NCBI RefSeq assembly: GCF_012676905.1
Contig: NZ_CP051428.1
Coordinates: 1,450,001 to 1,514,000 of the forward strand
Direction: 5' to 3'
DNA length: 64,000 nt
DNA from: Paenibacillus albicereus
GTDB lineage: Bacteria > Bacillota > Bacilli > Paenibacillales > Paenibacillaceae
Both the position numbers and the translations under genes were made by a program. The notes beneath the pieces were generated by a model, which had not been told where the DNA came from, did not search any database, and was given only the letters and a program-made list of their open reading frames with translations. Shown here piece by piece: positions 1-34,111 of this stretch; the stretch's first letter is position 1; each line of letters opens with the position of its first letter.

Positions 1-1334
<1,334 letters not shown>

Positions 1335-1422
1335 ATTCAAGCAAGACACAGCCGGTCAGCACGGCATTTCGTTCGATCCAGTTTTCAGGGCGCAAGTCCT
1401 GAAGCAACCCATCGCTTTATAT

Positions 1423-1498
1423 TCCCTGATAGCTCAGTTGGTAGAGCACTCGACTGTTAATCGAGTTGTCACAGGTTCGAGTCCTGTTCGGGGAGCCA
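1423..1498 (+). tRNA. tRNA-Asn(GUU)
   Basis: Complete cloverleaf with a 7-bp acceptor stem (tccctga/tcgggga), anticodon loop ctgttaa and encoded CCA. First tRNA after 23S rRNA, about 90 bases downstream. Confidence 0.97.
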
Positions 1499-1501
1499 TC
1501 T

Positions 1502-1592
1502 GGAGAGCTGTCCGAGTGGTCGAAGGAGCACGATTGGAAATCGTGTATACGTTAATCGCGTATCGAGAGTTCGAATCTCTCGCTCTCCGCCA
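1502..1592 (+). tRNA. tRNA-Ser(GGA)
   Basis: Class II tRNA with a long variable arm, acceptor stem ggagagc/gctctcc, anticodon loop ttggaaa and encoded CCA. It starts three bases after tRNA-Asn. Confidence 0.97.
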
Positions 1593-1597
1593 GATAT

Positions 1598-1672
1598 GGC
1601 CCGTTGGTCAAGGGGTTAAGACACCTCCCTTTCACGGAGGTAACAGGGGTTCGAATCCCCTACGGGTCACCA
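1598..1672 (+). tRNA. tRNA-Glu(UUC)
   Basis: Acceptor stem ggcccgt/acgggtc with one G-T pair, anticodon loop ctttcac, TTCGAAT arm and encoded CCA. Confidence 0.97.
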
Positions 1673-1688
1673 TTTTTCTTTCAATGGC

Positions 1689-1718
1689 TTGATATTGGTT
1701 ATCGTTCTAAGGTATATT
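1689..1718 (+). promoter_or_regulatory. candidate internal tRNA-operon promoter
   Basis: TTGATA at 1689-1694 and TATATT at 1713-1718 are separated by 18 bases inside the AT-rich 70-base gap between tRNA-Glu and tRNA-Val. This is the longest gap in the array and would allow the downstream tRNAs to be transcribed separately from the rRNA operon. This is inference from motif match only. Confidence 0.45.
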
Positions 1719-1742
1719 AATACAAGCTGTTGCAATTGTTTT

Positions 1743-1818
1743 GGAAGCTTAGCTCAGCTGGGAGAGCATCTGCCTTACAAGCAGAGGGTCGGGGGTTCGA
1801 TCCCCTCAGCTTCCACCA
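1743..1818 (+). tRNA. tRNA-Val(UAC)
   Basis: Acceptor stem ggaagct/agcttcc, anticodon loop cttacaa, encoded CCA. It follows the AT-rich gap that may carry a promoter. Confidence 0.97.
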
Positions 1819-1826
1819 TGAACTAC

Positions 1827-1903
<77 letters not shown>

Positions 1904-1907
1904 ATAC

Positions 1908-1984
1908 GGAGCTGTGGTGTAGAGGCCTAACATGCCTGCCTGTCACGCAGGAGACCGCGGGTTCGAATCCCGTCAGCTCCGCCA
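1908..1984 (+). tRNA. tRNA-Asp(GUC)
   Basis: Acceptor stem ggagctg/cagctcc, anticodon loop ctgtcac, discriminator G and encoded CCA. Confidence 0.97.
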
Positions 1985-2002
1985 TTTTTTTATCAAATGT
2001 CA

Positions 2003-2078
2003 GGCTCGGTAGCTCAGTTGGTAGAGCAAAGGACTGAAAATCCTTGTGTCGGCGGTTCGATTCCGTCCCGAGCCACCA
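2003..2078 (+). tRNA. tRNA-Phe(GAA)
   Basis: Acceptor stem ggctcgg/ccgagcc, anticodon loop ctgaaaa, encoded CCA. Confidence 0.97.
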
Positions 2079-2095
2079 TTTTGAAAATTGAATAT

Positions 2096-2171
<76 letters not shown>

Positions 2172-2181
2172 GCTTTTCCAT

Positions 2182-2267
2182 GGAGGATTAGCGAAGTGGC
2201 CAAACGCAGCAGACTGTAAATCTGTTCTCTGACGAGTTCGGTGGTTCGAATCCATCATCCTCCACCA
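2182..2267 (+). tRNA. tRNA-Tyr(GUA)
   Basis: Class II tRNA with extended variable arm, acceptor stem ggaggat/atcctcc, anticodon loop ctgtaaa, encoded CCA. Confidence 0.97.
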
Positions 2268-2272
2268 GTTTT

Positions 2273-2346
2273 AGGGGCATAGTTTAAAGGTAGAACAGCG
2301 GTCTCCAAAACCGTTAGTGTGGGTTCAATTCCTGCTGCCCCTGCCA
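2273..2346 (+). tRNA. tRNA-Trp(CCA)
   Basis: Acceptor stem aggggca/tgcccct, anticodon loop ctccaaa, discriminator G and encoded CCA. Confidence 0.97.
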
Positions 2347-2350
2347 CCAT

Positions 2351-2427
2351 GGCGATCGTGGCGAAGTGGTTAACGCACCGGATTGTGGTTCCGGCATTCG
2401 GGGGTTCAATTCCCCTCGATCGCCCCA
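2351..2427 (+). tRNA. tRNA-His(GUG)
   Basis: Has the His-specific extra G at position -1 opposite the discriminator C, acceptor stem gcgatcg/cgatcgc, anticodon loop ttgtggt, encoded CCA. Confidence 0.96.
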
Positions 2428-2436
2428 TCTTGTTAT

Positions 2437-2511
2437 TGGGGATTAGCCAAGCGGTAAGGCAACGGACTTTGACTCCGTCATTCTCAGGTTCGATCCCTGA
2501 ATCCCCAGCCA
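2437..2511 (+). tRNA. tRNA-Gln(UUG)
   Basis: Acceptor stem tggggat/atcccca, anticodon loop ctttgac, encoded CCA. Confidence 0.97.
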
Positions 2512-2514
2512 TTT

Positions 2515-2589
2515 GCGGAAGTGGCTCAGCGGTAGAGCATCGCCTTGCCAAGGCGAGGGTCGCGGGTTCGATTCCCGTCTTCCGCTCCA
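2515..2589 (+). tRNA. tRNA-Gly(GCC)
   Basis: Acceptor stem gcggaag/cttccgc, anticodon loop ttgccaa, discriminator T and encoded CCA. Confidence 0.97.
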
Positions 2590-2598
2590 TTTGATTGA

Positions 2599-2672
2599 GG
2601 CGCCATAGCCAAGTGGTAAGGCAAAGCTCTGCAAAAGCTTTACCCCCAGTTCGAGTCTGGGTGGCGCCTCCA
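2599..2672 (+). tRNA. tRNA-Cys(GCA)
   Basis: Acceptor stem ggcgcca/tggcgcc, anticodon loop ctgcaaa, discriminator T and encoded CCA. Confidence 0.97.
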
Positions 2673-2688
2673 TTTCTTTGCTTGACGT

Positions 2689-2765
2689 GTGCCCTTAGCT
2701 CAGCTGGATAGAGCATTTGACTACGAATCAAAAGGTCAGGAGTTCGAATCTCTTAGGGCACGCCA
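2689..2765 (+). tRNA. tRNA-Arg(ACG)
   Basis: Acceptor stem gtgccct/agggcac, anticodon loop ctacgaa (A34, expected to be edited to inosine by TadA), discriminator G and encoded CCA. Confidence 0.96.
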
Positions 2766-2810
2766 CAAGCGGAATTTTTTTATTTTACGAGCAATTGCAA
2801 GTCTCAATAT

Positions 2811-2893
2811 GCTGGTGTGGCGGAATGGCAGACGCGGCGGACTCAAAATCCGCTTCCGGAGACGGAGTGGGGGTTCGAGTCCCTTCACCAGCA
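2811..2893 (+). tRNA. tRNA-Leu(CAA), CCA not encoded
   Basis: Class II tRNA with acceptor stem gctggtg/caccagc, anticodon loop ctcaaaa and a long variable arm. The discriminator A is followed by tcg, so unlike the other 15 tRNAs of this array the CCA end is not encoded and must be added by CCA nucleotidyltransferase. Last gene of the array. Confidence 0.95.
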
Positions 2894-2899
2894 TCGCGT

Positions 2900-24571: not shown

Positions 24572-26266
24572 TCAATCCGAACCGTCCAGCTCCTCGAGCT
24601 GGAACGCGGTGCGGAAGCGCAGGCTGTCCGCAGGAGCGCGCAAGGAGCGTCCGCAGAGCTGCTCGATCTTGGCCATGCGGTACAAGACCGTATTGCGATG
24701 GACATACAGCGCCTTGGCGGTATCGGCGATGCGCCCCTGGTGCTCATAGTAGGCGCGCAGCGTCCGCCGCAGCTCCTCGCTCTCCTCGGCCGTGTCCAGC
24801 GCCCCGAACGTCTCCGCGACGAAGCGGCGCCGCTCCGGCAGCGGGAGCATCCGCAGCAGCTCGGGCAACTCCTGCACGTGGCTGAACTGAAGGAAGCGGC
24901 GCTTGCCGACGAGCAGGCCGGATTTCCAGGCATTCCCGGCTTCCTGAAACGAACGGGAGAGCGACGACAGGCGATCGGATGGATTGCCGATGCCGCAGCT
25001 GAGGCCGATCCCGAGCGCCTCGCCGGCTTGCAGGACGACCCGCTGCAGCGGCATGCCGAGCAGCCGCTCGAGCCCGCTCGGGCCGCCCTGCAGGCAGGGC
25101 TCGATCATGGCGAGCCCGTCCTGCTTGGCGAACAGCAGTCCGCCGAGCCCGGCCGACCGGGCCGCTTTCTTGACCGCTTCGTACAGCTCGTCCCGCTCGC
25201 GCCGATCCATGCGCTGCGGACTCGACCCGCCGCCGGCCTCCTGGCCGGCGGGCGGGTCTTTTTTGATGACGGCGCACACGTAGGGCCGATCCGGCTCCAG
25301 GCCGTAGCGGCGCCCCCGGCGCGCAATCTCCGATTCCTGCGCGATCAGGCCGTCGACGACGTCGGACAGGAAATCATGCTTGAAGCGCCGCGAGCGCTCG
25401 CGTACGGCCAGCGTCTTGAGCAGCTCGAAGCTGGCGACGTTGGCCGCCTGCTCCAGCGTCTGGTACGCCATTTCGTCGGGGGCTCCGGATTCGCAGGCGG
25501 CCAGAAGCCCGCCCTGGAGCTGCGTGGTGTGGATCGGCGCGGCAAGCACGCCGGACCAGCGGCAGCTCGGAACGTCGTCGAGCGGCAAATAGACCGGGCG
25601 CAGCGAGGAGCGGCCGAAGCTCTCGCGCAGGCGCCGGAAAATGGCGCCCGTCAGCGGATGCTCGATGCCGGGCGGATCCGTCTCGGACGCGAGGCGGGAG
25701 GAAAACGCCTCCTCCGGCACGATGCCGGAGGAGGCGACCGGCTCGCCCTCCGCGCCGAGCAGAAGCACGGGCAGGCCGATCAGGCGACCGACGGCCTCGA
25801 TGAGATCCTGAAGGCTGCGGCCTTCCATGACGAGCTCGGTCAGCTGACGGTGCGCGAGCAGCGCATACCGCATCTCCTCCGTGCGGACCTGGAGGATGCG
25901 GGCCATGAGCTGCTGCACCGCATCGGCCAGCGAGCAGTCCAGGCCGAGCTCCAGCAGCGGCAGCCGGTGCCGGTCCGCCGCTTCGATCAGCTCCGGCGGA
26001 ATCCGGTCGAAATAGCGCTTGGTCTTGATGCCGAGCCCCGCGCAGCCGAGGCGGCCCATCTCCTCGACGAGACGGACGAGCACCTCCGGCTGATCCTTGA
26101 CGGCGTAGGCGGTCGTCAGCAGCAGCTCGCTCGGCTTCAGGAAGTCGAAGATATCCGGCGAGTCCATCATGTTCACGCTCGACACCAGCCGGTCCAAGCC
26201 TTCCTTGCCGGCGACGAGCCGGGAGCTGCCGAGCATCGGCGCATGAATCAAGTCCCCGATCCGCAT
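24572..26266 (-). CDS. PucR family transcriptional regulator
   Basis: A 564-residue regulator. An N-terminal PucR ligand-binding domain (GSSRLVAGKEGLDRLVSSVN through PSELLLTTAYAVKD) is followed by a central GGDEF-like/GAF-like region and a C-terminal PucR-type HTH (AYYEHQGRIADTAKALYVHR, then NTVLYRMAKIE). PucR regulators control purine and allantoin catabolism in Bacillus and related routes elsewhere. The start is ATG 26266, supported by AAAGGAGA 9 bases upstream. It is divergent from an amidohydrolase-ABC transporter-Rieske operon and is the probable activator of that operon, with the purine-derived ligand as the signal. Confidence 0.9.
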   Translation of the reverse strand: MRIGDLIHAPMLGSSRLVAGKEGLDRLVSSVNMMDSPDIFDFLKPSELLLTTAYAVKDQPEVLVRLVEEMGRLGCAGLGIKTKRYFDRIPPELIEAADRHRLPLLELGLDCSLADAVQQLMARILQVRTEEMRYALLAHRQLTELVMEGRSLQDLIEAVGRLIGLPVLLLGAEGEPVASSGIVPEEAFSSRLASETDPPGIEHPLTGAIFRRLRESFGRSSLRPVYLPLDDVPSCRWSGVLAAPIHTTQLQGGLLAACESGAPDEMAYQTLEQAANVASFELLKTLAVRERSRRFKHDFLSDVVDGLIAQESEIARRGRRYGLEPDRPYVCAVIKKDPPAGQEAGGGSSPQRMDRRERDELYEAVKKAARSAGLGGLLFAKQDGLAMIEPCLQGGPSGLERLLGMPLQRVVLQAGEALGIGLSCGIGNPSDRLSSLSRSFQEAGNAWKSGLLVGKRRFLQFSHVQELPELLRMLPLPERRRFVAETFGALDTAEESEELRRTLRAYYEHQGRIADTAKALYVHRNTVLYRMAKIEQLCGRSLRAPADSLRFRTAFQLEELDGSD

Positions 26267-26491
26267 AGGCGGGTTTCTCCTTTCCTGAGCCAATTTAGAA
26301 CGGCTCGCTTGGATGATGACCGTTTATTATGTAAGAAAATCTGACTTAACTAGAAAGGCGTTTGGTGGAAATGAACAAAACAGGCGATGATTTTGATTCA
26401 GTATAACCAATGACAACCAAGACGGCAATCCAGTACGCTTAGCTCAAGTCATATCGAGTCAGGAAAGTTGACATAAAACGAGGTGGGGCAT

Positions 26492-27877
26492 ATGAGTACG
26501 ATCTTGATCCGGGAAGGCTTCGTACTGACGATGAACGATGAACGCGAGCTGCTGGAGCCGGGATATGTGCTGGTCGAAGGCGACCGGATCGCGGAGGTGG
26601 GCAGCTGGCCGCCGGTGGAAGGGGAAGAGCGGCTGCTCGCGCGCGCCGACCGGATCGTAGAAGCGCGGGGGATGGCGGTCATCCCGGGCCTCATCAACAG
26701 CCACACGCATCTGTTCCAGACGTTCCTGCGCGGCGTATCGGACGAGTACCGGCTGTTCGACTGGCTGCGGCAGGTCATCTGGCCGGGCTCGCTGGCCATG
26801 GAGGAGGAGGATTTCTACCTGGCGGCGATGATCGGCTGCGTCGAGAACCTGAAGTCCGGCGCGACGACGGTGATGGACCATCATTACATCCACACGTTCG
26901 AAGGCAACACGGACGGGGTGCTGCGGGCGATGCGCGAGAGCGGTATCCGCGGCTATCTGGCCCGAGGCGGCGTCGACCTGAGCTACGAGGAACGGCTGCG
27001 CGAGGACGAAGAGACGATCTTCCGCCGCACGGACGAGGCTCTGGACCGCTGGGACGGCGAGGCGGGAGGCCGGCTGCGGATCGCGCTGGGACCGCTCAAC
27101 CTGTACGGCTGCTCGCGGGAATTCCTCGAGCGGGCCGCCCGCTTCAGCCGCGAGCGCGGCCTCATCGCCCACATCCATGTCGCGGAGACGAGCGGCCAGA
27201 TCGAGAACACGCTGGAGCGCTTCGGGCTGCGCAACCTGGAGCTGGTCGAGGCCGTCGGGCTGCTGGGGCCGTCCACGCAGGTCGTGCACGGCATCTGGCT
27301 CAGCGACCGGGAGCTGGAGCTCATCCGGGATGCGGGCGCCTCGGTCATCCATTGTCCGGTATCGAACATGTATCTCGCCTCCGGGGTGGCGCGCGTGCCG
27401 GAGATGCTGGAGTCCGGCATCAACGTCGCGCTCGGCACGGACGGCCCGGGCAGCAACAACTGCCAGGACAATCTGGAGGTGCTCAAGTTCGCCGCCTGCC
27501 TGCACAAGCTCGACCGGATGGACTCGACCTTGCTGCCGCCCATGCAGGTGCTGGAGCTCGGCACGCGCGGCGGAGCCAAGGCGCTCGGCCGCGACGGCGA
27601 TCTCGGACAGCTCGCGCCCGGCATGAAGGCAGACATCGCTGTCGTCGACCTGCAGAAAGCGCATATCGCGCCCTTGCACCGCGTCTCTTCTGCGCTCGTG
27701 TACAACGCCAACGGCAACGACGTGCATACGGTGCTCGTCGACGGACAGATCGTCGTCAACGGCGGCGCCTGCACGCTCGTGGACGAAGCGGAGATCATCC
27801 GCCGCGCCCAGAGCCGCGTCGATCGCTTGCGGAGCCGGCTGGCCGCGGCCTACCCGGCGTATGCCCAGCGGAGCTGA
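26492..27877 (+). CDS. metal-dependent amidohydrolase / nucleobase deaminase-like
   Basis: A 461-residue enzyme of the TRZ/ATZ/guanine deaminase-type amidohydrolase family. Metal ligands are visible in NSHTHLFQTF, HIHVAETSGQ, VHGIWLS and GTDGPGSNN. Close relatives deaminate guanine, 8-oxoguanine, S-adenosylhomocysteine, methylthioadenosine or triazines. Context (PucR regulator, nucleoside-type ABC importer, Rieske oxygenase) favours an aminopurine or modified nucleobase. GAGGTGGGG precedes the ATG. It is the first gene of the operon; the transporter starts 44 bases later. Confidence 0.85.
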   Translation: MSTILIREGFVLTMNDERELLEPGYVLVEGDRIAEVGSWPPVEGEERLLARADRIVEARGMAVIPGLINSHTHLFQTFLRGVSDEYRLFDWLRQVIWPGSLAMEEEDFYLAAMIGCVENLKSGATTVMDHHYIHTFEGNTDGVLRAMRESGIRGYLARGGVDLSYEERLREDEETIFRRTDEALDRWDGEAGGRLRIALGPLNLYGCSREFLERAARFSRERGLIAHIHVAETSGQIENTLERFGLRNLELVEAVGLLGPSTQVVHGIWLSDRELELIRDAGASVIHCPVSNMYLASGVARVPEMLESGINVALGTDGPGSNNCQDNLEVLKFAACLHKLDRMDSTLLPPMQVLELGTRGGAKALGRDGDLGQLAPGMKADIAVVDLQKAHIAPLHRVSSALVYNANGNDVHTVLVDGQIVVNGGACTLVDEAEIIRRAQSRVDRLRSRLAAAYPAYAQRS

Positions 27878-27921
27878 GGGCGGCGGGTCGGCGCCAAACC
27901 AACCGAAAGGAGGCACGATCC

Positions 27922-29061
27922 ATGGAGGCTGACGGATCGGTTCGCGAGAAAACGGTCAAGCTGCTCGTCGAAGCGCTGTTCCATGCCTTGGCGCTCACAG
28001 GAGCGCTGGCGGCCGGCGCCGCAGTCATGGCGGCGGCGGGCATCTCTCCCTGGGCCGCCTATCCCGCCCTGTGGGACGGGGCGGCCGGCAGCCTGGACAG
28101 CTTCAAGGAAACGCTCGTCAAGGCGACGCCGCTGCTGCTGACCGGACTGGCCTACAGCTTCGCCTACCGCTGCGGCCTGTTCAACATCGGCGCCGAAGGC
28201 CAGCTCTACGCCGGAGCGCTCGCCGGAACGGCCGCGGCGCTGCTGCTGCCGCCGCTGCCGGGCTGGCTGCACCTGCCGCTCGCATTGCTGTGCGGCATGG
28301 CAGGCGGGGCGCTGTGGGGCGGCATCGCCGGAGCGCTCAAGGCCGGACGGGGGGCCAGCGAGATCATCAGCACGATCATGCTCAATTATGTCGGCTTGTA
28401 TCTCGTGAGCTACATGGTGACGGGTCCGCTGCGGGATGCGGGCGGCTCGCTGCCGCAGTCGGCGGCGATCCCGCTCGCGGCGGAGCTGCCCAAGCTGCTC
28501 GGCTCACGGCTGCATGCCGGCGCGCTGATCGCGCTCGCGGCGGCAATCGTCGCGTATCTCGTGCTTCACCGCTCCACATGGGGCTACGAGATTCGTTCCG
28601 CAGGTTCCAACCGGCGCGCCGCCGAGGTCGCCGGCATGCCGGTGAAGCGCAACACGGTGCTCGTGCTGATGGCGAGCGGCGCCTTCGCCGGGCTGGCCGG
28701 CTGGATGGAGATCGGAGGCGTGCAGAACCGGCTGCTGCAGAACTTCTCGCCGGGCTTCGGCTATGACGGCATCGCCGTGGCGCTGCTCGGAGGCGCGCAT
28801 CCGCTCGGGAATATCCTGTCGGCGCTGCTGTTCGGCGGACTGCGCAGCGGCGCGAACGCCATGCAGCGCGCGACAGGCGCTTCGACCTCGCTCGTGTACG
28901 TCATCCAGGCGGTGCTCATCATCCTGATGCTCTGCAACCGCTACTGGCTGAACGGCGTGAAGCGGATGATCGTCGCGAGACTGCTCGGCGGACGGGAGGC
29001 GGGCCGAGCCGGACCCGCAGCCGCCATCGAGACGACGAAGCTGGGAGGGGAAGGAGCATGA
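27922..29061 (+). CDS. nucleoside-type ABC transporter permease (NupP/YufP-like)
   Basis: A 379-residue membrane protein with about ten hydrophobic segments, member of the branched-chain/ribose-type permease family (BPD_transp_2). GLFNIGAEGQLYAGALAGT, IISTIMLNYVGLYLVSY and GFGYDGIAVALLGG are hallmarks of the BMP-dependent nucleoside importers such as NupNOPQ and YufNOPQ. AAAGGAGG stands upstream of the ATG. It is translationally coupled to the second permease (ATGA overlap at 29058). Its N-terminus up to about residue 30 is more hydrophilic than usual. Confidence 0.9.
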   Translation: MEADGSVREKTVKLLVEALFHALALTGALAAGAAVMAAAGISPWAAYPALWDGAAGSLDSFKETLVKATPLLLTGLAYSFAYRCGLFNIGAEGQLYAGALAGTAAALLLPPLPGWLHLPLALLCGMAGGALWGGIAGALKAGRGASEIISTIMLNYVGLYLVSYMVTGPLRDAGGSLPQSAAIPLAAELPKLLGSRLHAGALIALAAAIVAYLVLHRSTWGYEIRSAGSNRRAAEVAGMPVKRNTVLVLMASGAFAGLAGWMEIGGVQNRLLQNFSPGFGYDGIAVALLGGAHPLGNILSALLFGGLRSGANAMQRATGASTSLVYVIQAVLIILMLCNRYWLNGVKRMIVARLLGGREAGRAGPAAAIETTKLGGEGA

Positions 29062-29993
29062 GCGCAGACGCATGGATCCACTACGCCGAAGCGGCGATCC
29101 GGCTGTCCGCGATCGTGCTGCTGGCGGCGCTCGGCGTGCTGTTCATGGCTCGCAGCGGCATCCTCAACATCGGCATGGAAGGCATGATGCTGATCGGCGC
29201 GCTGGCGGCCGTGCTCGGCTCGGCCGCCGGCGGCAGCGCCTGGACGGGACTGGCGGCGGCGGCCGCTGCCGGCTGCCTGATCGGCCTGCTGTTCGCCTTT
29301 CTCGTCGTCACGACCGGAGCCGACCAGGTCATCATCGGCACGGCGCTCAATCTGCTCGGCCTCGGCGTGACGACGGTATTCGGACGCTCGCTGCTCGGCA
29401 TGGGCACCGAGGCGCGGCAGGCCGTCAGCCTGCAGCCGCTGCCGATCCCGCTGCTGAGCGACCTGCCGGTCGTCGGACCGATGCTGTTCCAGCACAACCT
29501 GCTCACCTATCTCGCCTTCGCCCTGCTTCCCGTCGTCAGCCTCGTCCTGTACCGGACCGGCTGGGGCCTGAGCGTACGGGCGGTCGGCGAGCATCCGCTC
29601 GCGGCCGACACCCTCGGCGTGCGCGTGCACCGGATCCGCTACCAATGCTGCGCGATCGGAGGCGTGCTGGCCGGACTGGCGGGAGGCGCGCTGTCGATCG
29701 GGCTCCTCAACCAGTTCACGGAGAACATGGTGGCGGGCCGCGGATTCATCGCCTTGTCGGCCGTCATCTTCGGCCGCTGGACGCCGGGCGGCACGGCGGC
29801 GGGATCGCTGCTGTTCGGAGCCGCCGACGCCCTCCAGCTGCGCTTCCAGACGCTCGGCATCGAGATTCCGTACCAGTTCCTGCTGCTGTTCCCGTATGTG
29901 CTGACGATGCTGGCGCTCGCCTGGTTCTCCGGCCGGACGCGGGCGCCGGCGGCGACAGCCAAGCCGTACAAAAGCGCCGCCAACCGTGTCTGA
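29058..29993 (+). CDS. nucleoside-type ABC transporter permease (NupQ/YufQ-like)
   Basis: A 311-residue polytopic permease, partner of the preceding one. The motif MARSGILNIGMEGMMLIGAL and the GRGFIALSAVIFGRW block are typical of the second permease in BMP-type nucleoside importers. The start overlaps the upstream stop by 4 bases. The ATPase gene follows 36 bases after. Confidence 0.9.
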   Translation: MSADAWIHYAEAAIRLSAIVLLAALGVLFMARSGILNIGMEGMMLIGALAAVLGSAAGGSAWTGLAAAAAAGCLIGLLFAFLVVTTGADQVIIGTALNLLGLGVTTVFGRSLLGMGTEARQAVSLQPLPIPLLSDLPVVGPMLFQHNLLTYLAFALLPVVSLVLYRTGWGLSVRAVGEHPLAADTLGVRVHRIRYQCCAIGGVLAGLAGGALSIGLLNQFTENMVAGRGFIALSAVIFGRWTPGGTAAGSLLFGAADALQLRFQTLGIEIPYQFLLLFPYVLTMLALAWFSGRTRAPAATAKPYKSAANRV

Positions 29994-30029
29994 GACCGAA
30001 GCCAAGAGGTAGAAGGGAGGAGGATCGCC

Positions 30030-31553
30030 ATGCGGATAAGCGCAGGGGAAGAGATCGTGCTCGCCACGCGCGGGCTGACGAAGCGCTTCGGCTCGTTCAC
30101 GGCGAACGACGGATTGGACTTGGACTTTCGGCGCGGAGAGATCCATGCCATCCTCGGCGAGAACGGGGCGGGCAAAAGCACGCTGATGAACATGCTCTCC
30201 GGCCTGATCGAGCCCGACGGGGGAGAGATTCGGCTGAACGGAGCGTCCGTCCGCTTCGGCTCGCCGCGAGCGGCGATGAGAGCGGGCATCGGCATGGTGC
30301 ATCAGCACTTCATGCTCGTGCCGGCGCTGACGGCAGCGGAGAATGTCCTGATCGGGCTGAAGCAGGGGCGCGGACCGCTGCTGCGCAAGCGGCAGGCCTG
30401 CCGCGACATCGCGGAGCTGTCGGAGCGGTACGGCCTGCGGATCGACCCTGCGCGCAAGGTGCAGGAGCTGTCCGTCGGCCAGCAGCAGCGGGTGGAGATC
30501 GTCAAGACGCTGTATCGCGGAGCCGAGTTCATCATCCTCGACGAGCCGACGGCCGTGCTGACGCCGCTCGAGACGGAGGAGCTGATGGCGATCCTGCGCG
30601 GCTTGCGGGAGCAGGGCAAGACGATCGTCTTCATCAGCCACAAGCTGCAGGAGGTGATGGGCGTCTGCGACCGCGTGAGCGTGCTGCGGGCAGGGCGGCT
30701 CGTCGCGAGCCGGGACGTCTCCGCCACGAGCGCGGCGGAGCTGGCCTCGCTCATGGTCGGACGCGAGCTGAAGCCGGTATTGCCGCGAACGGCGGCGCGC
30801 GAGGGCAAGGTCCGGCTGGCGATGAGGGACGTGCATGCGGAGGCGCCGGGGGGCCAGAGCCTGCGCGGAGTTTCGCTGGAGCTGCGCGAAGGGGAGATTC
30901 TCGGCATCGCCGGCGTCGACGGCAACGGCCAGCGGGAGCTGTGCGAGGTGCTGCTCGGCCTGCTGCGGCGGACGGGCGGCCAGGTGGAGCTCGGAGGAGC
31001 CAGCCTGGAGCGGCCGAATCCGCGCCGGATGGCGGAGCTCGGGGTCGGCTATATTCCGGAGGACCGGCATCGGGAGGGGCTGTGCCTCGATCTGACGATC
31101 GGCGAGAGCCTGATCGCCAAATCTTATCGGAGCCGTCCGTTCAGCCGCTTCGGGCTGCTGCGGCCGAGGAAGGTGCGGGAAGCCGCCGAGCAGGCGGTGC
31201 ACTCGTTCCGAGTGCGTACGCCCGGCCTGGCTGCGCCGGTGCGCGCGCTCTCCGGGGGCAACCAGCAGAAGGTCGTGCTGGCGAGAGAGCTCATGCTGGA
31301 GCCGAGCCTGCTGCTGGCGATGCAGCCGACGCGCGGCATGGACGTCGGAGCCGCGGAGCAGGTGCACGCGCGGCTGCTCGCCGAGCGCGAGCGCGGCTGC
31401 GCCGTGCTGCTCCTGTCGACGGAGCTGGAGGAGGTGCGGGCGCTTTCCGACCGCATCGCCGTCCTGTTCAAGGGCAGGCTGGTCGGCGTCATGGCGCGCG
31501 GAGAGTTCGAGGCCGAGCGGATCGGCCTGTGGATGGCGGGGCTGGACGGGTGA
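30030..31553 (+). CDS. nucleoside-type ABC transporter ATPase (NupO/YufO-like)
   Basis: A 507-residue protein with two fused nucleotide-binding domains, as in sugar and nucleoside importers. The first domain has Walker A GENGAGKST, signature LSVGQQQRVEI and Walker B FIILDEPTAV. In the second domain the P-loop reads GIAGVDGNGQRELCEV (degenerate), the signature is LSGGNQQKVVLARE and the Walker B is altered to LLAMQPTRGMD. This asymmetry is normal in the family. GGGAGGAGGATCGCC precedes the ATG. It energises the two permeases upstream. Confidence 0.93.
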   Translation: MRISAGEEIVLATRGLTKRFGSFTANDGLDLDFRRGEIHAILGENGAGKSTLMNMLSGLIEPDGGEIRLNGASVRFGSPRAAMRAGIGMVHQHFMLVPALTAAENVLIGLKQGRGPLLRKRQACRDIAELSERYGLRIDPARKVQELSVGQQQRVEIVKTLYRGAEFIILDEPTAVLTPLETEELMAILRGLREQGKTIVFISHKLQEVMGVCDRVSVLRAGRLVASRDVSATSAAELASLMVGRELKPVLPRTAAREGKVRLAMRDVHAEAPGGQSLRGVSLELREGEILGIAGVDGNGQRELCEVLLGLLRRTGGQVELGGASLERPNPRRMAELGVGYIPEDRHREGLCLDLTIGESLIAKSYRSRPFSRFGLLRPRKVREAAEQAVHSFRVRTPGLAAPVRALSGGNQQKVVLARELMLEPSLLLAMQPTRGMDVGAAEQVHARLLAERERGCAVLLLSTELEEVRALSDRIAVLFKGRLVGVMARGEFEAERIGLWMAGLDG

Positions 31554-31608
31554 CGGATGGCGCTCGCGCGGCAGGTTCGGATTTATTTCTTTTGACAACG
31601 AGGGGGCG

Positions 31609-32676
31609 ATGGGAATGGACAAGAGGAAGATGGCGCATCGAACGATCAGCGGCTCGGGAGCGGCGGGAGGGCTGCGGCTGGCCGCGCTGCTGCTGGCGCT
31701 CGCTCTGGCGCTGGCGGGCTGCGGAGGCGGGGAGACGGCGAAAACGGGCGCATCGGCGCCGGAGGGCAACGACCCGGGCCGCTTGAAGGTCGCGCTGCTC
31801 GTTCCGGGAGCGGTGAACGACAACGGCTGGAACAGCGTCGCCTACAGCGGCTTGATGAAGATCAAGGACGAGCTTGGAGCGGAAACGCAGGTTTCGGAGA
31901 AGGTCGGTCAATCCGACATGGCCGAGTTCCTGCGCGGCTATGCGCAGGACGGCTTCGACGTCGTCATCGGGCATGGCTTCGAGTTCGCGGAGCCGATGAT
32001 GGACATCGCCAAGGACTTTCCGGATACGTGGTTCCTCGTGACGAGCTCCACCGCGGCGCAGGAGCCGAACGTCGCGTCGATCAGCATCAACAACCGCGAG
32101 CAGGGCTATCTGATGGGCACGGCCGCGGCGCTGCTGTCGCAGTCGGGCAAGGTCGCCGCCATCGGCGGCATGGACATCCCGCCGATCACCAATTCCGTGG
32201 CGGGCTTCAAGGAAGGCGCGGAGGCCGCCGTGCCGGGCATCGAGGTGTTGACGGCGATGACGGGAAGCGGCGAGGATATCGCCAAGGCGAAGGAGACGGC
32301 GATCTCCATGATCGAGAAAGGCGCCGACGTCGTCATGACGAACGCGAATGCGGCCGGCAACGGAGGCATCGAGGCGGCGAAGCAGGAGGGCGTGCTGGCG
32401 ATCGGCTCCAACGTGGATCTGAACCCGATCGCGCCGGATACGATCGCGGTCAGCGTCATCCAGGACTATCCGGCGGCGATGCTGTCCGTCGTCAAGGAGG
32501 TTCAGGAAGGCCGCATGAAGGCGGAGCCCAAGCTGCTCGGCGTGAAGGAAGGGGCGGTATATCTCAGTCCCTACCATGGCTTCGAGGCCAAGATTCCGCA
32601 GGAAGCGAAGGACCGGATCGAAGCGGTCGTCGCCTCGCTGCAAGACGGTTCCCTGCAGGTCAAGAACAGCGATTAG
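31609..32676 (+). CDS. BMP family substrate-binding lipoprotein (NupN/BmpA-like)
   Basis: A 355-residue extracytoplasmic binding protein. The signal peptide ends in lipobox LAGC with lipidation at Cys38, and the mature part (VALLVPGAVNDNGWNSVAY, GHGFEFAEPMMDIAKDFP, SSTAAQEPNVASI) is characteristic of the BMP family (PF02608) that binds purine nucleosides, for example guanosine in Bacillus subtilis and Treponema PnrA. The gene follows the ATPase, whereas in yufNOPQ the binding protein comes first. Start at 31609 or 31615. It delivers substrate to the upstream transporter. Confidence 0.93.
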   Translation: MGMDKRKMAHRTISGSGAAGGLRLAALLLALALALAGCGGGETAKTGASAPEGNDPGRLKVALLVPGAVNDNGWNSVAYSGLMKIKDELGAETQVSEKVGQSDMAEFLRGYAQDGFDVVIGHGFEFAEPMMDIAKDFPDTWFLVTSSTAAQEPNVASISINNREQGYLMGTAAALLSQSGKVAAIGGMDIPPITNSVAGFKEGAEAAVPGIEVLTAMTGSGEDIAKAKETAISMIEKGADVVMTNANAAGNGGIEAAKQEGVLAIGSNVDLNPIAPDTIAVSVIQDYPAAMLSVVKEVQEGRMKAEPKLLGVKEGAVYLSPYHGFEAKIPQEAKDRIEAVVASLQDGSLQVKNSD

Positions 32677-32689
32677 GAGGCGGAAGAAG

Positions 32690-33712
32690 ATGAGCATGAC
32701 GATTCCGAGCTACACCGATACGGTTCCACTCAAGGACGGCGTGCTGGAGCATGAATGGCATCCGGTCTGCTCGTCGGCGGAGCTGAAGGACAAGCCGCTG
32801 TCCGCCATCGTGCTCGGCGAGCGCGTCGCCGTCTATCGGACGTCGCGGGGCGTGCATGCGCTGCGCGACCTGTGCGTGCATCGCGGCGCGATGCTGTCCA
32901 AGGGCTGGGTGGAGGACGATCGCAACCTCGTCTGTCCGTATCACGGCTGGAAGTACGATACCGAAGGCAGCTGCGTGTGCATCCCGGCTCAAGGCAAGGA
33001 CGACCGCATCCCGCCCCGCGCCAAGGCGGTCAAGTATCGAACGCAGGAGAAGTACGGCATCGTCTGGGCGTGCATCGGCGAGCCGCGCGCCGAGCTGCCC
33101 GACCTGGAGGAATTCGAGCGACCGGAGTATCGCCCGCTCGTCTGCGGTCCGTACCGGGTGAACGCCGCCGGCACCCGGGTCATCGAGAACTTCACCGACT
33201 TCGCGCATCTGATGTACGTGCATGGGGGACTGCTCGGCCATCCCGACTATTCCGAGCTGCCGGACTTCGAGGTGCATCGCGAGGAGGGGCGCGTCTATAC
33301 AGGGGACGTGCCGATCTTTCAGCCGATCGCCCATTCGGGATCGGAGCATGCGGAGGGCACGACGTACGTCTACGTCAAGGAAGTGTTCCGTCCCTTAGCC
33401 GCCCGGCTGTCCAAGCGGGATGCCGCCACCGGCCAGACGCTGTGGATCATGCTGACGGTGCTGCCGATCTCGGAGAAGGAATGCCTCGTCTACATGCCGG
33501 TGTCGCGCAATTATGCCTTCGACGTCGCGGATCAGGCCTTCATCGACTTTCAAGATACCGTATTCGATCAGGACAAGTGGATCATCGAGACGCAGAAGCC
33601 GGAGCTGCTCCCGCTCGACCTCCAGGCCGAGCTGAACCACAAGGCCGACAAGCTTTCGGTCGCTTATCGCAAATGGCTCGCCGGCATGGGCGTCCGCACC
33701 TGCATGGCGTAG
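32690..33712 (+). CDS. Rieske non-heme iron oxygenase (oxygenase component)
   Basis: A 340-residue protein with an N-terminal Rieske [2Fe-2S] domain (CVHRG, then CPYHGW) and a C-terminal catalytic domain with the mononuclear iron motif (NFTDFAHLMYVHGG). It belongs to the vanillate/N-demethylase-type family (VanA, TsaM, the methylxanthine demethylases NdmA and NdmB), whose members are about 340-350 residues. RBS GGAGG precedes ATG 32690. It is co-transcribed, 13 bases after the BMP lipoprotein, with a purine-like deaminase and transporter. The expected reductase partner is not in the cluster. A purine N-demethylase or ring hydroxylase role is inference. Confidence 0.9.
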   Translation: MSMTIPSYTDTVPLKDGVLEHEWHPVCSSAELKDKPLSAIVLGERVAVYRTSRGVHALRDLCVHRGAMLSKGWVEDDRNLVCPYHGWKYDTEGSCVCIPAQGKDDRIPPRAKAVKYRTQEKYGIVWACIGEPRAELPDLEEFERPEYRPLVCGPYRVNAAGTRVIENFTDFAHLMYVHGGLLGHPDYSELPDFEVHREEGRVYTGDVPIFQPIAHSGSEHAEGTTYVYVKEVFRPLAARLSKRDAATGQTLWIMLTVLPISEKECLVYMPVSRNYAFDVADQAFIDFQDTVFDQDKWIIETQKPELLPLDLQAELNHKADKLSVAYRKWLAGMGVRTCMA

Positions 33713-33814: not shown

Positions 33815-34027
33815 TCAGCCTTTGTGCAGATGCCCGTGCAGCTTGCCGACCAGCGACTGCTGCTCGGCGGCCGGGCTGTCCTTCCAGATCATCTCGAACA
33901 GCACACCGAGGCCCGGAAGGGCCTTTTCATCGCTGTCGATCGAATCCCGGATGATCTCGCCGAGCTCGCTTTCGGACTTGTCCTGCACGATCTGCGTGAT
34001 CGCCTCTCGCAGGTTGAATTGGCTCAT
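33815..34027 (-). CDS. sspI: small acid-soluble spore protein I
   Basis: A 70-residue protein: MSQFNLREAITQIVQDKSES at the N-terminus, then the core LPGLGVLFEMIWKDSPAAEQ, the SspI consensus. It is a minor spore-core DNA/ spore protein made under sigma-G in Bacillus. The ATG at 34027 is chosen because it gives the conserved N-terminus; a longer frame upstream lacks a site. As in Bacillus, it is beside ysgA/rlmP, here separated only by ktrA. It is the clearest sign that the organism forms endospores. Confidence 0.93.
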   Translation of the reverse strand: MSQFNLREAITQIVQDKSESELGEIIRDSIDSDEKALPGLGVLFEMIWKDSPAAEQQSLVGKLHGHLHKG

Positions 34028-34111
34028 CGCTTGCTCATTCCCCCTTGATGTCGGATCTCGGTTAGAATGCCCGCCGCCCGCCTCCCCCATTCGGAAAACG
34101 CCTGCCGTATG

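Follow-up and report, generated by a model that had tools for sequence, protein, structure and literature searches.

A conserved amidohydrolase–Rieske oxygenase locus in Paenibacillus: a proposed form of purine-base catabolism, probably undescribed, in Bacillota

The Rieske oxygenases NdmA and NdmB are fully dependent on NdmD (PMC4408171), and two active-site mutations switch NdmA from N1- to N3-demethylation (PMC8055839, citing Kim et al. 2019). An ndmA homologue (1E-50), cautioned as of unknown function, is listed in Bacillus aryabhattai (PMC8055839), so such Rieske genes have already been noted in Bacillota. In Klebsiella the Rieske system HpxDE oxidises hypoxanthine and xanthine (as told in PMC7373994), and a proteobacterial xanthine/urate riboswitch lies upstream of HpxD-like Rieske oxygenases, NMT1-type proteins and amidohydrolases resembling 8-hydroxyguanine or guanine deaminases (PMC7373994). 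Among amidohydrolases, guanine deaminases and N2,N2-dimethylguanine hydrolases have a catalytic set of Gln, Glu, His and Asp (PMC13054789), which a companion paper also gives for guanine-deaminase-cluster enzymes (PMC12828455); the substrates of cluster members include guanine, 8-oxoguanine, N2,N2-dimethylguanine and triazines (PMC13054789, PMC12828455). Here we describe a seven-gene locus in a 64,000-nucleotide stretch of the Paenibacillus albicereus genome (the window, C1:1450001-1514000 of a single 5.17 Mb contig), comprising a PucR-family regulator, an amidohydrolase (AmH), a BMP-type importer and a Rieske oxygenase (R1). On balance we favour reading it as an accessory purine-base catabolic operon through which a modified base of the guanine type would enter the normal purine breakdown of the cell, and we regard it as a real and conserved variant of purine-base catabolism that is probably undescribed in Bacillota. 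How bacteria degrade modified nucleobases from RNA turnover is, to our knowledge, poorly mapped, and a literature search, with most subscription papers outside its reach, found no description of this gene set in Bacillota.

The features of the locus, in window coordinates, are:
24572..26266, minus strand: pucR, PucR-family regulator, divergent from the operon (PF07905, 113 bits; PF13556 HTH_30, 73 bits)
26403..26415, plus strand: candidate PucR-box-like site with an AACCAA core, between pucR and the operon
26492..27877, plus strand: AmH, amidohydrolase-superfamily deaminase of the guanine-deaminase/AtzB type (PF01979 Amidohydro_1, 239.7 bits)
27922..29061, plus strand: permA, ABC permease (PF02653 BPD_transp_2, 166 bits)
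29058..29993, plus strand: permB, ABC permease, overlapping permA by 4 bases (PF02653 BPD_transp_2, 132 bits)
30030..31553, plus strand: ABC ATPase with two nucleotide-binding domains (PF00005 ABC_tran in two stretches, 178.9 bits)
31609..32676, plus strand: BMP1, BMP/PnrA-type substrate-binding lipoprotein (PF02608 Bmp, 190 bits against a cut-off of 24)
32690..33712, plus strand: R1, Rieske non-haem iron oxygenase of the VanA_C type, 340 residues (PF00355, 82 bits; PF19112, 86 bits)
All seven genes are open frames at the positions first claimed for them, and Pfam backs each family. The frame of R1 opens at 32576 and its start at 32690 sits nine bases past AGGAGG (32675–32680); its PF00355 and PF19112 matches both exceed the cut-off.

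A search of 394 genomes of the host's family gave an R1 match of at least 65% identity in 18 genomes, the host's own included (12 at 77% or more, 6 at 65–68%). A scan of named genomes, requiring at least 62% identity in the best segment, gave 42 R1 loci, one of them (L145) with a split R1, and 10 more distant loci with 34–50% identity to R1; the closest named relative found for R1 is Paenibacillus pasadenensis DSM 19293, in the same genus, at 90–91%. AmH shares the locus with R1 in 39 of these 42 genomes, and the 39 span Paenibacillus, Cohnella, Halalkalibacter and one record labelled Neobacillus. The order regulator–AmH–permA–permB–ATPase–BMP–R1 is found again in 10 of the 42, so the neighbourhood exceeds chance. 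A BMP importer is present at 10 loci (L104–L110, L116, L117 and L119) and an NMT1-type binding protein at 30, while L111 and L118 carry neither importer type; the regulator is a divergent PucR at 7 loci and Lrp-type at 25. Since AmH persists as the importer type varies, the AmH–R1 pair is the stable core of the locus and the importer is exchangeable. The proviso of the original prediction, that the Rieske gene might prove unrelated to the transporter in relatives, has a mixed answer: the BMP importer is exchanged for the NMT1 type in 30 of the 42 loci, while the linkage of R1 to AmH is kept.

The solved structure nearest to AmH is atrazine chlorohydrolase AtzA (4v1x), with the 8-oxoguanine deaminase/AtzB-like entry 7ww2 and with 3hpa also close. 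AmH carries the catalytic set of the guanine deaminase/AtzB cluster (Gln after beta-strand 1, Glu, His and Asp): Q76, E232, H266 and D317, together with the flanking W91, W97 and Y132, are kept in 40 of 40 AmH sequences, the window's included, which upholds the earlier description of a guanine-deaminase-like amidohydrolase. Its scores nevertheless stay below the cut-offs of the NCBIfam models for 8-oxoguanine deaminase (PRK08203; 312.9 against 532 bits) and guanine deaminase (TIGR02967; 166 against 375.4 bits). Compared with the window's AmH, identity is 69% for the copy of L053 and 68% for that of L051 (both class 2), and 70% for that of L046 (class 1); identity to a Paenibacillus 8-oxoguanine-deaminase-like protein (L049:1955-3364) is 34%.

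R1 finds its nearest solved relatives in SxtT, NdmA and NdmB (E 7e-46 to 6e-42; NdmA 4e-44, NdmB 6e-42) and has the features of a Rieske oxygenase, namely CxH/CxxH ligands, a bridging Asp and a 2-His-1-Asp iron site. D170, H173, H178 and D295 are present in all 43 aligned rows, and C62, H64, C82 and H85 in 42, the remaining row having a gap there; we take these residues to be the cluster ligands, bridging Asp and iron site. In a tree built from alignment A3, which does not include L014, R1 falls in an 18-row clade (support 100/99) apart from a paralogue in its own genome and from NdmA and NdmB, the last two on long branches whose joins are unsure. The motif ENFTDF is common to R1, NdmA and NdmB; its counterpart is ENFLDV or ENFLDA in the class 3 rows and EGFLDV in the class 4 rows. 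At the positions that differ between the NdmA chains 6ick and 6icp, presumably the two NdmA specificity mutations, R1 carries Gln288, matching NdmB, and Phe292, matching NdmA. For N-demethylation of the methylxanthine type, as originally suggested, the signs are divided: R1 shares the motif with NdmA and NdmB but falls outside them in the tree, and a search for an NdmD-type reductase found none in the genome. A structural model of R1 had a mean predicted local distance difference test (pLDDT) score of 48 and was not used. The reductase-associated family PF00970 has no match in four (G000, G292, G109 and G029) of seven R1 genomes scanned and one match in each of the other three; in G043 (P. caui) there is a single PF00970 match, in a 435-residue frame, and no Fer2 match. 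The host carries a second Rieske gene (C1:4997218, 45% identical to R1; L037, C1:4988000-5007500) paired with a BMP lipoprotein of the c6 type; this Rieske–BMP pair (L037:9204-11537) recurs in relatives, once directly past xanthine dehydrogenase (XDH) genes (L096).

The importer is complete, as had been predicted, but the nucleoside ligand then assigned to it is doubtful. By sequence, the solved proteins nearest to BMP1 are Lbp (7x0r), 4p98 and AtzT (6pi5); an AlphaFold2 model (mean pLDDT 75.9) compared with the PDB by Foldseek gave 7x0r, 6shu and 6y9u as best matches. The pocket of BmpA is formed by Phe27, Phe176, Asp225 and Lys242, of which Asp225 and Lys242, with Asp98, are placed to engage ribose (PMC13325309). 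By our own mapping of BmpA columns onto BMP1 via Lbp, Trp74, Asn268 and Gln285 occupy the positions of Phe27, Asp225 and Lys242 in BMP1 and its 10 orthologues (11 of 11), and the Phe176 position is non-aromatic in all 11; Trp at the Phe27 position is still aromatic. BMP1 thus has the Bmp domain and fold and lacks the aromatic sandwich and the ribose-contacting Asp and Lys. These altered ribose positions, although the nearest folds are nucleoside-bound, hint that the ligand may be a free base rather than a nucleoside.

The pucR product carries both the PucR and HTH_30 domains, and the site at 26403–26415 has 2 mismatches to the B. subtilis PucR-box consensus, TTAACCAANGWWW. Six such sites occur in the window against 2.96 expected, which is not significant alone. 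Upstream of AmH in seven PucR-type relatives, the best sites have 0, 0, 1, 1, 1, 2 and 2 mismatches (that of L105, with 2, is without the AACCAA core), whereas in 25 Lrp-type loci the best site has 1 mismatch once, 2 in 12 and 3 in 12; the difference, with the window counted, has p 2e-4, a value overstated by the relatedness of the sequences. The comparison omitted L113–L115, which have no AmH, and L137 and L140–L145, which have neither regulator and whose best sites have 4 or 5 mismatches. Riboswitch control was considered and dropped, as Rfam found no riboswitch in the window, L037, L088, L053 or L111.

We then looked for a reference set of purine genes inside ~10 kb of R1. Purine-degradation genes lie there in 10 of the 42 loci (P. 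rigui L111, L113–L115, L137 and L140–L144). The order in P. rigui is Lrp, AmH, R1, 2-oxo-4-hydroxy-4-carboxy-5-ureidoimidazoline (OHCU) decarboxylase, 5-hydroxyisourate hydrolase (HIUase), allantoinase (ALN), allantoate amidohydrolase (AAH) and PucG. L113–L115, from Robertmurraya and a Bacillus metagenome-assembled genome, have R1 and NMT1 beside HIUase, a flavoprotein (c75), OHCU decarboxylase, PucR, AAH, PucG and allantoinase. In L140–L144 the AmH, R1 and NMT1 genes share one cluster with uricase, XDH subunits and further purine genes; in L137 the purine genes clustered with them include neither XDH nor uricase. The 10 BMP-type loci, the window's own kind, have none of the reference genes in this span. 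The claim that XDH genes are absent turned out to be true of the window only: the host genome has one PF20256 match (C1:4186885-4187685), within an XDH-type operon at ~C1:4179900-4195500 (L088) that also holds a BMP importer, OHCU decarboxylase, HIUase, allantoinase, AAH and PucG. In L088 (C1:4177500-4197000) the purine operon is followed by a frame that resembles, by eye, a gamma-glutamyltranspeptidase-like gene of P. rigui (L111:16080-17882, PF01019), which we suppose might be an HpxW-like oxamate amidohydrolase.

In the pathway that we envisage, the importer would bring in a guanine-type base (a modified guanine or a close analogue, for example a pterin), likelier free than as a nucleoside, and AmH would remove its exocyclic 2-amino (or alkylamino) group. 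The resulting oxopurine would then be oxidised by R1, either N-demethylated or hydroxylated on the ring, giving xanthine or urate for the chromosomal operon to degrade; PucR, or an Lrp-type regulator in relatives, would control expression. The dedicated uptake and breakdown set originally proposed gains purine ties from the AmH–R1 pair, the divergent PucR and the purine genes (39, 7 and 10 of 42 loci), and the proteobacterial association described in PMC7373994 makes the grouping of these genes less novel and a purine substrate more likely. Our best single guess at the substrate class, offered tentatively, is guanine with methyl or other modifications, derived from RNA turnover or from plant material. 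A more specific scheme, which we put forward with more doubt than confidence, is a two-enzyme salvage of modified guanine in Bacillota that would join a base-specific BMP or NMT1 importer, a guanine-analogue hydrolase and a Rieske N-demethylase or hydroxylase to an undescribed electron donor, with no VanB/NdmD-type reductase.

A different role for R1 would be to replace an enzyme of the ordinary route, and across the 394 genomes PF20256 is found in 222, uricase in 121 and OHCU decarboxylase in 240. As an HpxD-like xanthine hydroxylase, with AmH as an ordinary guanine deaminase, R1 could complete a molybdenum-free guanine-to-urate route standing in for XDH, for which HpxDE offers a precedent. 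A substitution of this kind is suggested by class 3/4 Rieske genes (34–51% identical to R1, and not R1 itself), which are present in 41 of the 48 OHCU-positive genomes that have no PF20256 match against 91 of the 192 that have one (Fisher p 1.4e-6, which like the p-value given below is indicative only, the genomes being related, PF20256 not XDH-specific and the tallied lists copied by hand). In genus g9 a Rieske gene of class 3 or 4 is present in 35 of 35 PF20256-negative, OHCU-positive genomes, in these always of class 4, against 11 of 29 others; elsewhere class 4 (examples at L070:9324-10400 and L071:9001-10056) coexists with XDH, as in 29 OHCU-positive g5 genomes. Class 4 Rieske is accordingly a candidate XDH substitute, foremost in g9. 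That pattern, however, belongs to a clade separate from R1. Of the 42 R1 genomes, 41 match PF20256, a family-level indication since PF20256 matches enzymes besides XDH; the window's genome has the XDH operon, and AmH is well under the guanine-deaminase cut-off (166 against 375 bits). R1 as an XDH substitute was demoted on the 41 of 42, and we consider it quite unlikely. A Pantoea plasmid flavoprotein beside two Rieske genes resembles 2,6-dihydroxypyridine hydroxylase (E 8e-42) more than HpxO (3rp8, as we take that entry to be; E 8e-10), so that no HpxD reference was gained.

Alternatively, R1 could be a Rieske-type urate hydroxylase replacing uricase, its urate coming from AmH as an 8-oxoguanine deaminase. 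A PF01014 (uricase) match is missing from the window's genome, and in P. rigui, whose genome also lacks a uricase match, the genes immediately after R1 are OHCU decarboxylase, HIUase and the allantoin genes. Yet uricase is present in 32 of 42 R1 genomes, 5 of which hold it inside the R1 locus, and the other 10, like the window's genome, carry c75, an FMO/ArsO-like flavoprotein (reference L075:16252-17667; host copy C1:2124702-2126102, 72%). Among hand-picked genomes c75 tracks uricase absence far better, being found in 51 of the 59 without uricase and 2 of the 21 with it (Fisher p 3e-10); each of the 11 uricase-minus R1 genomes scanned has c75, those of the window and P. rigui included. OHCU decarboxylase status covers all but one (Halalkalibacter) of the 59; among the 51 positives, three genes are interrupted by an in-frame stop and another lies in two pieces, and of the 8 negatives G359 has a 37-residue fragment and G323 a weak match. 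R1 as a uricase substitute was demoted on these distributions and is very unlikely, while c75 becomes a candidate non-homologous urate hydroxylase; the class 3a paralogue in the host's own genome is possible as the missing urate enzyme, c75 being the better fit. In Robertmurraya c75 lies beside HIUase and OHCU decarboxylase, and two genomes of genus g14, G298 and G301, have a class 3 Rieske gene no more than ~1 kb from the uricase gene. Since 41 of 42 R1 genomes have PF20256 and 42 of 42 have uricase or c75, the simplest view of R1 is as an extra entry point to a purine route that is complete without it.

Several observations weigh against the accessory purine operon that we favour. PucR and the six operon proteins reach the cut-off of no NCBIfam model among the matches listed, and the structural ranking of BMP1 puts guanosine-bound Lbp, adenosine-bound BmpD and PnrA first and AtzT behind. 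The search for a reductase partner that had been called for came back empty: the window's genome has no PF00970 match and no VanB/NdmD- or HpxE-type reductase was found in it, its Fer2 matches being just a small frame at C1:2289895 (~104 residues) and the XDH iron–sulphur subunit. L113–L115 have no AmH inside ~10 kb of R1, and 19 of the 42 loci (L120–L136, L138 and L139; Paenibacillus) have no reference purine gene in that span. After AmH–R1, these 19 carry NMT1, an amidohydrolase k7 (19 of 19), a FAD_binding_4 protein k6 (19), a creatininase-family protein k9 (18), a second amidohydrolase k8 (18), an FMN_red flavodoxin k10 (15), and an ABC ATPase and permease, a content that suits another heterocycle equally and speaks more strongly than any other observation against a simple purine as substrate. 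A non-purine N-heterocycle as the substrate (a pterin, an s-triazine, a creatinine-like compound or another), the purine look coming from shared chemistry, would fit these loci as well as the atrazine chlorohydrolase match of AmH and the nearness of AtzT to BMP1 by sequence. We hold it unlikely, in view of the PucR-type regulators, the PucR-box-like sites in PucR-type loci, the purine-degradation genes in 10 of 42 loci and the uricase or c75 of every R1 genome. AmH could also, formally, be a deaminase of an adenosine-like compound, its highest NCBIfam scores among the matches listed being those to PRK06038 (388.6, cut-off 609) and PRK07228 (5'-deoxyadenosine deaminase; 387.5, cut-off 522), both short of the cut-off. 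A 5'-methylthioadenosine/S-adenosylhomocysteine (MTA/SAH)-type deaminase was rejected, as the solved structure 4dzh, which we assume to be of that type, has Met at the position of AmH's catalytic Gln.

If AmH and R1 do act on modified guanines, the locus would offer a route that is amenable to genetics in Bacillota, and a Rieske system supplied with electrons in a new way. The genome comparison in addition yields two testable substitutions in purine degradation: c75 where uricase is missing, and class 4 Rieske where XDH is missing. As to the surroundings of the locus, an SspI small spore protein gene (33815–34090, minus strand) comes after R1 and stands outside the gene set, and window positions 1–2895 hold the last part of a 23S rRNA gene together with 16 tRNA genes in a row.

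Set against described systems, the operon resembles BMP/PnrA nucleoside importers in its Bmp family, two permeases and double ATPase, and in having nucleoside-bound folds as its nearest; BMP1 is unlike BMP/PnrA proteins and AtzT at the aromatic-sandwich and ribose-contact positions in 11 of 11 sequences. With Klebsiella HpxDE and the proteobacterial NMT1-motif regulon it shares the association of Rieske, NMT1-type and guanine-type amidohydrolase genes, although here, in a comparison made without an HpxD sequence, no HpxE-type reductase or Rfam riboswitch was found and XDH is present. AmH is like the AtzB/8-oxoguanine deaminase/N2,N2-dimethylguanine hydrolase cluster in its catalytic Gln, Glu, His and Asp and flanking Trp/Tyr, and unlike 8-oxoguanine deaminase in its score on that NCBIfam model (312.9 against 532 bits). 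NdmA and NdmB of Pseudomonas putida, Rieske monooxygenases acting on methylated purines, are among the closest solved relatives of R1 and have ENFTDF in common with it; R1 differs from them in that no NdmD-type reductase was found in its genome, in its separate clade and in its coupling to a deaminase.

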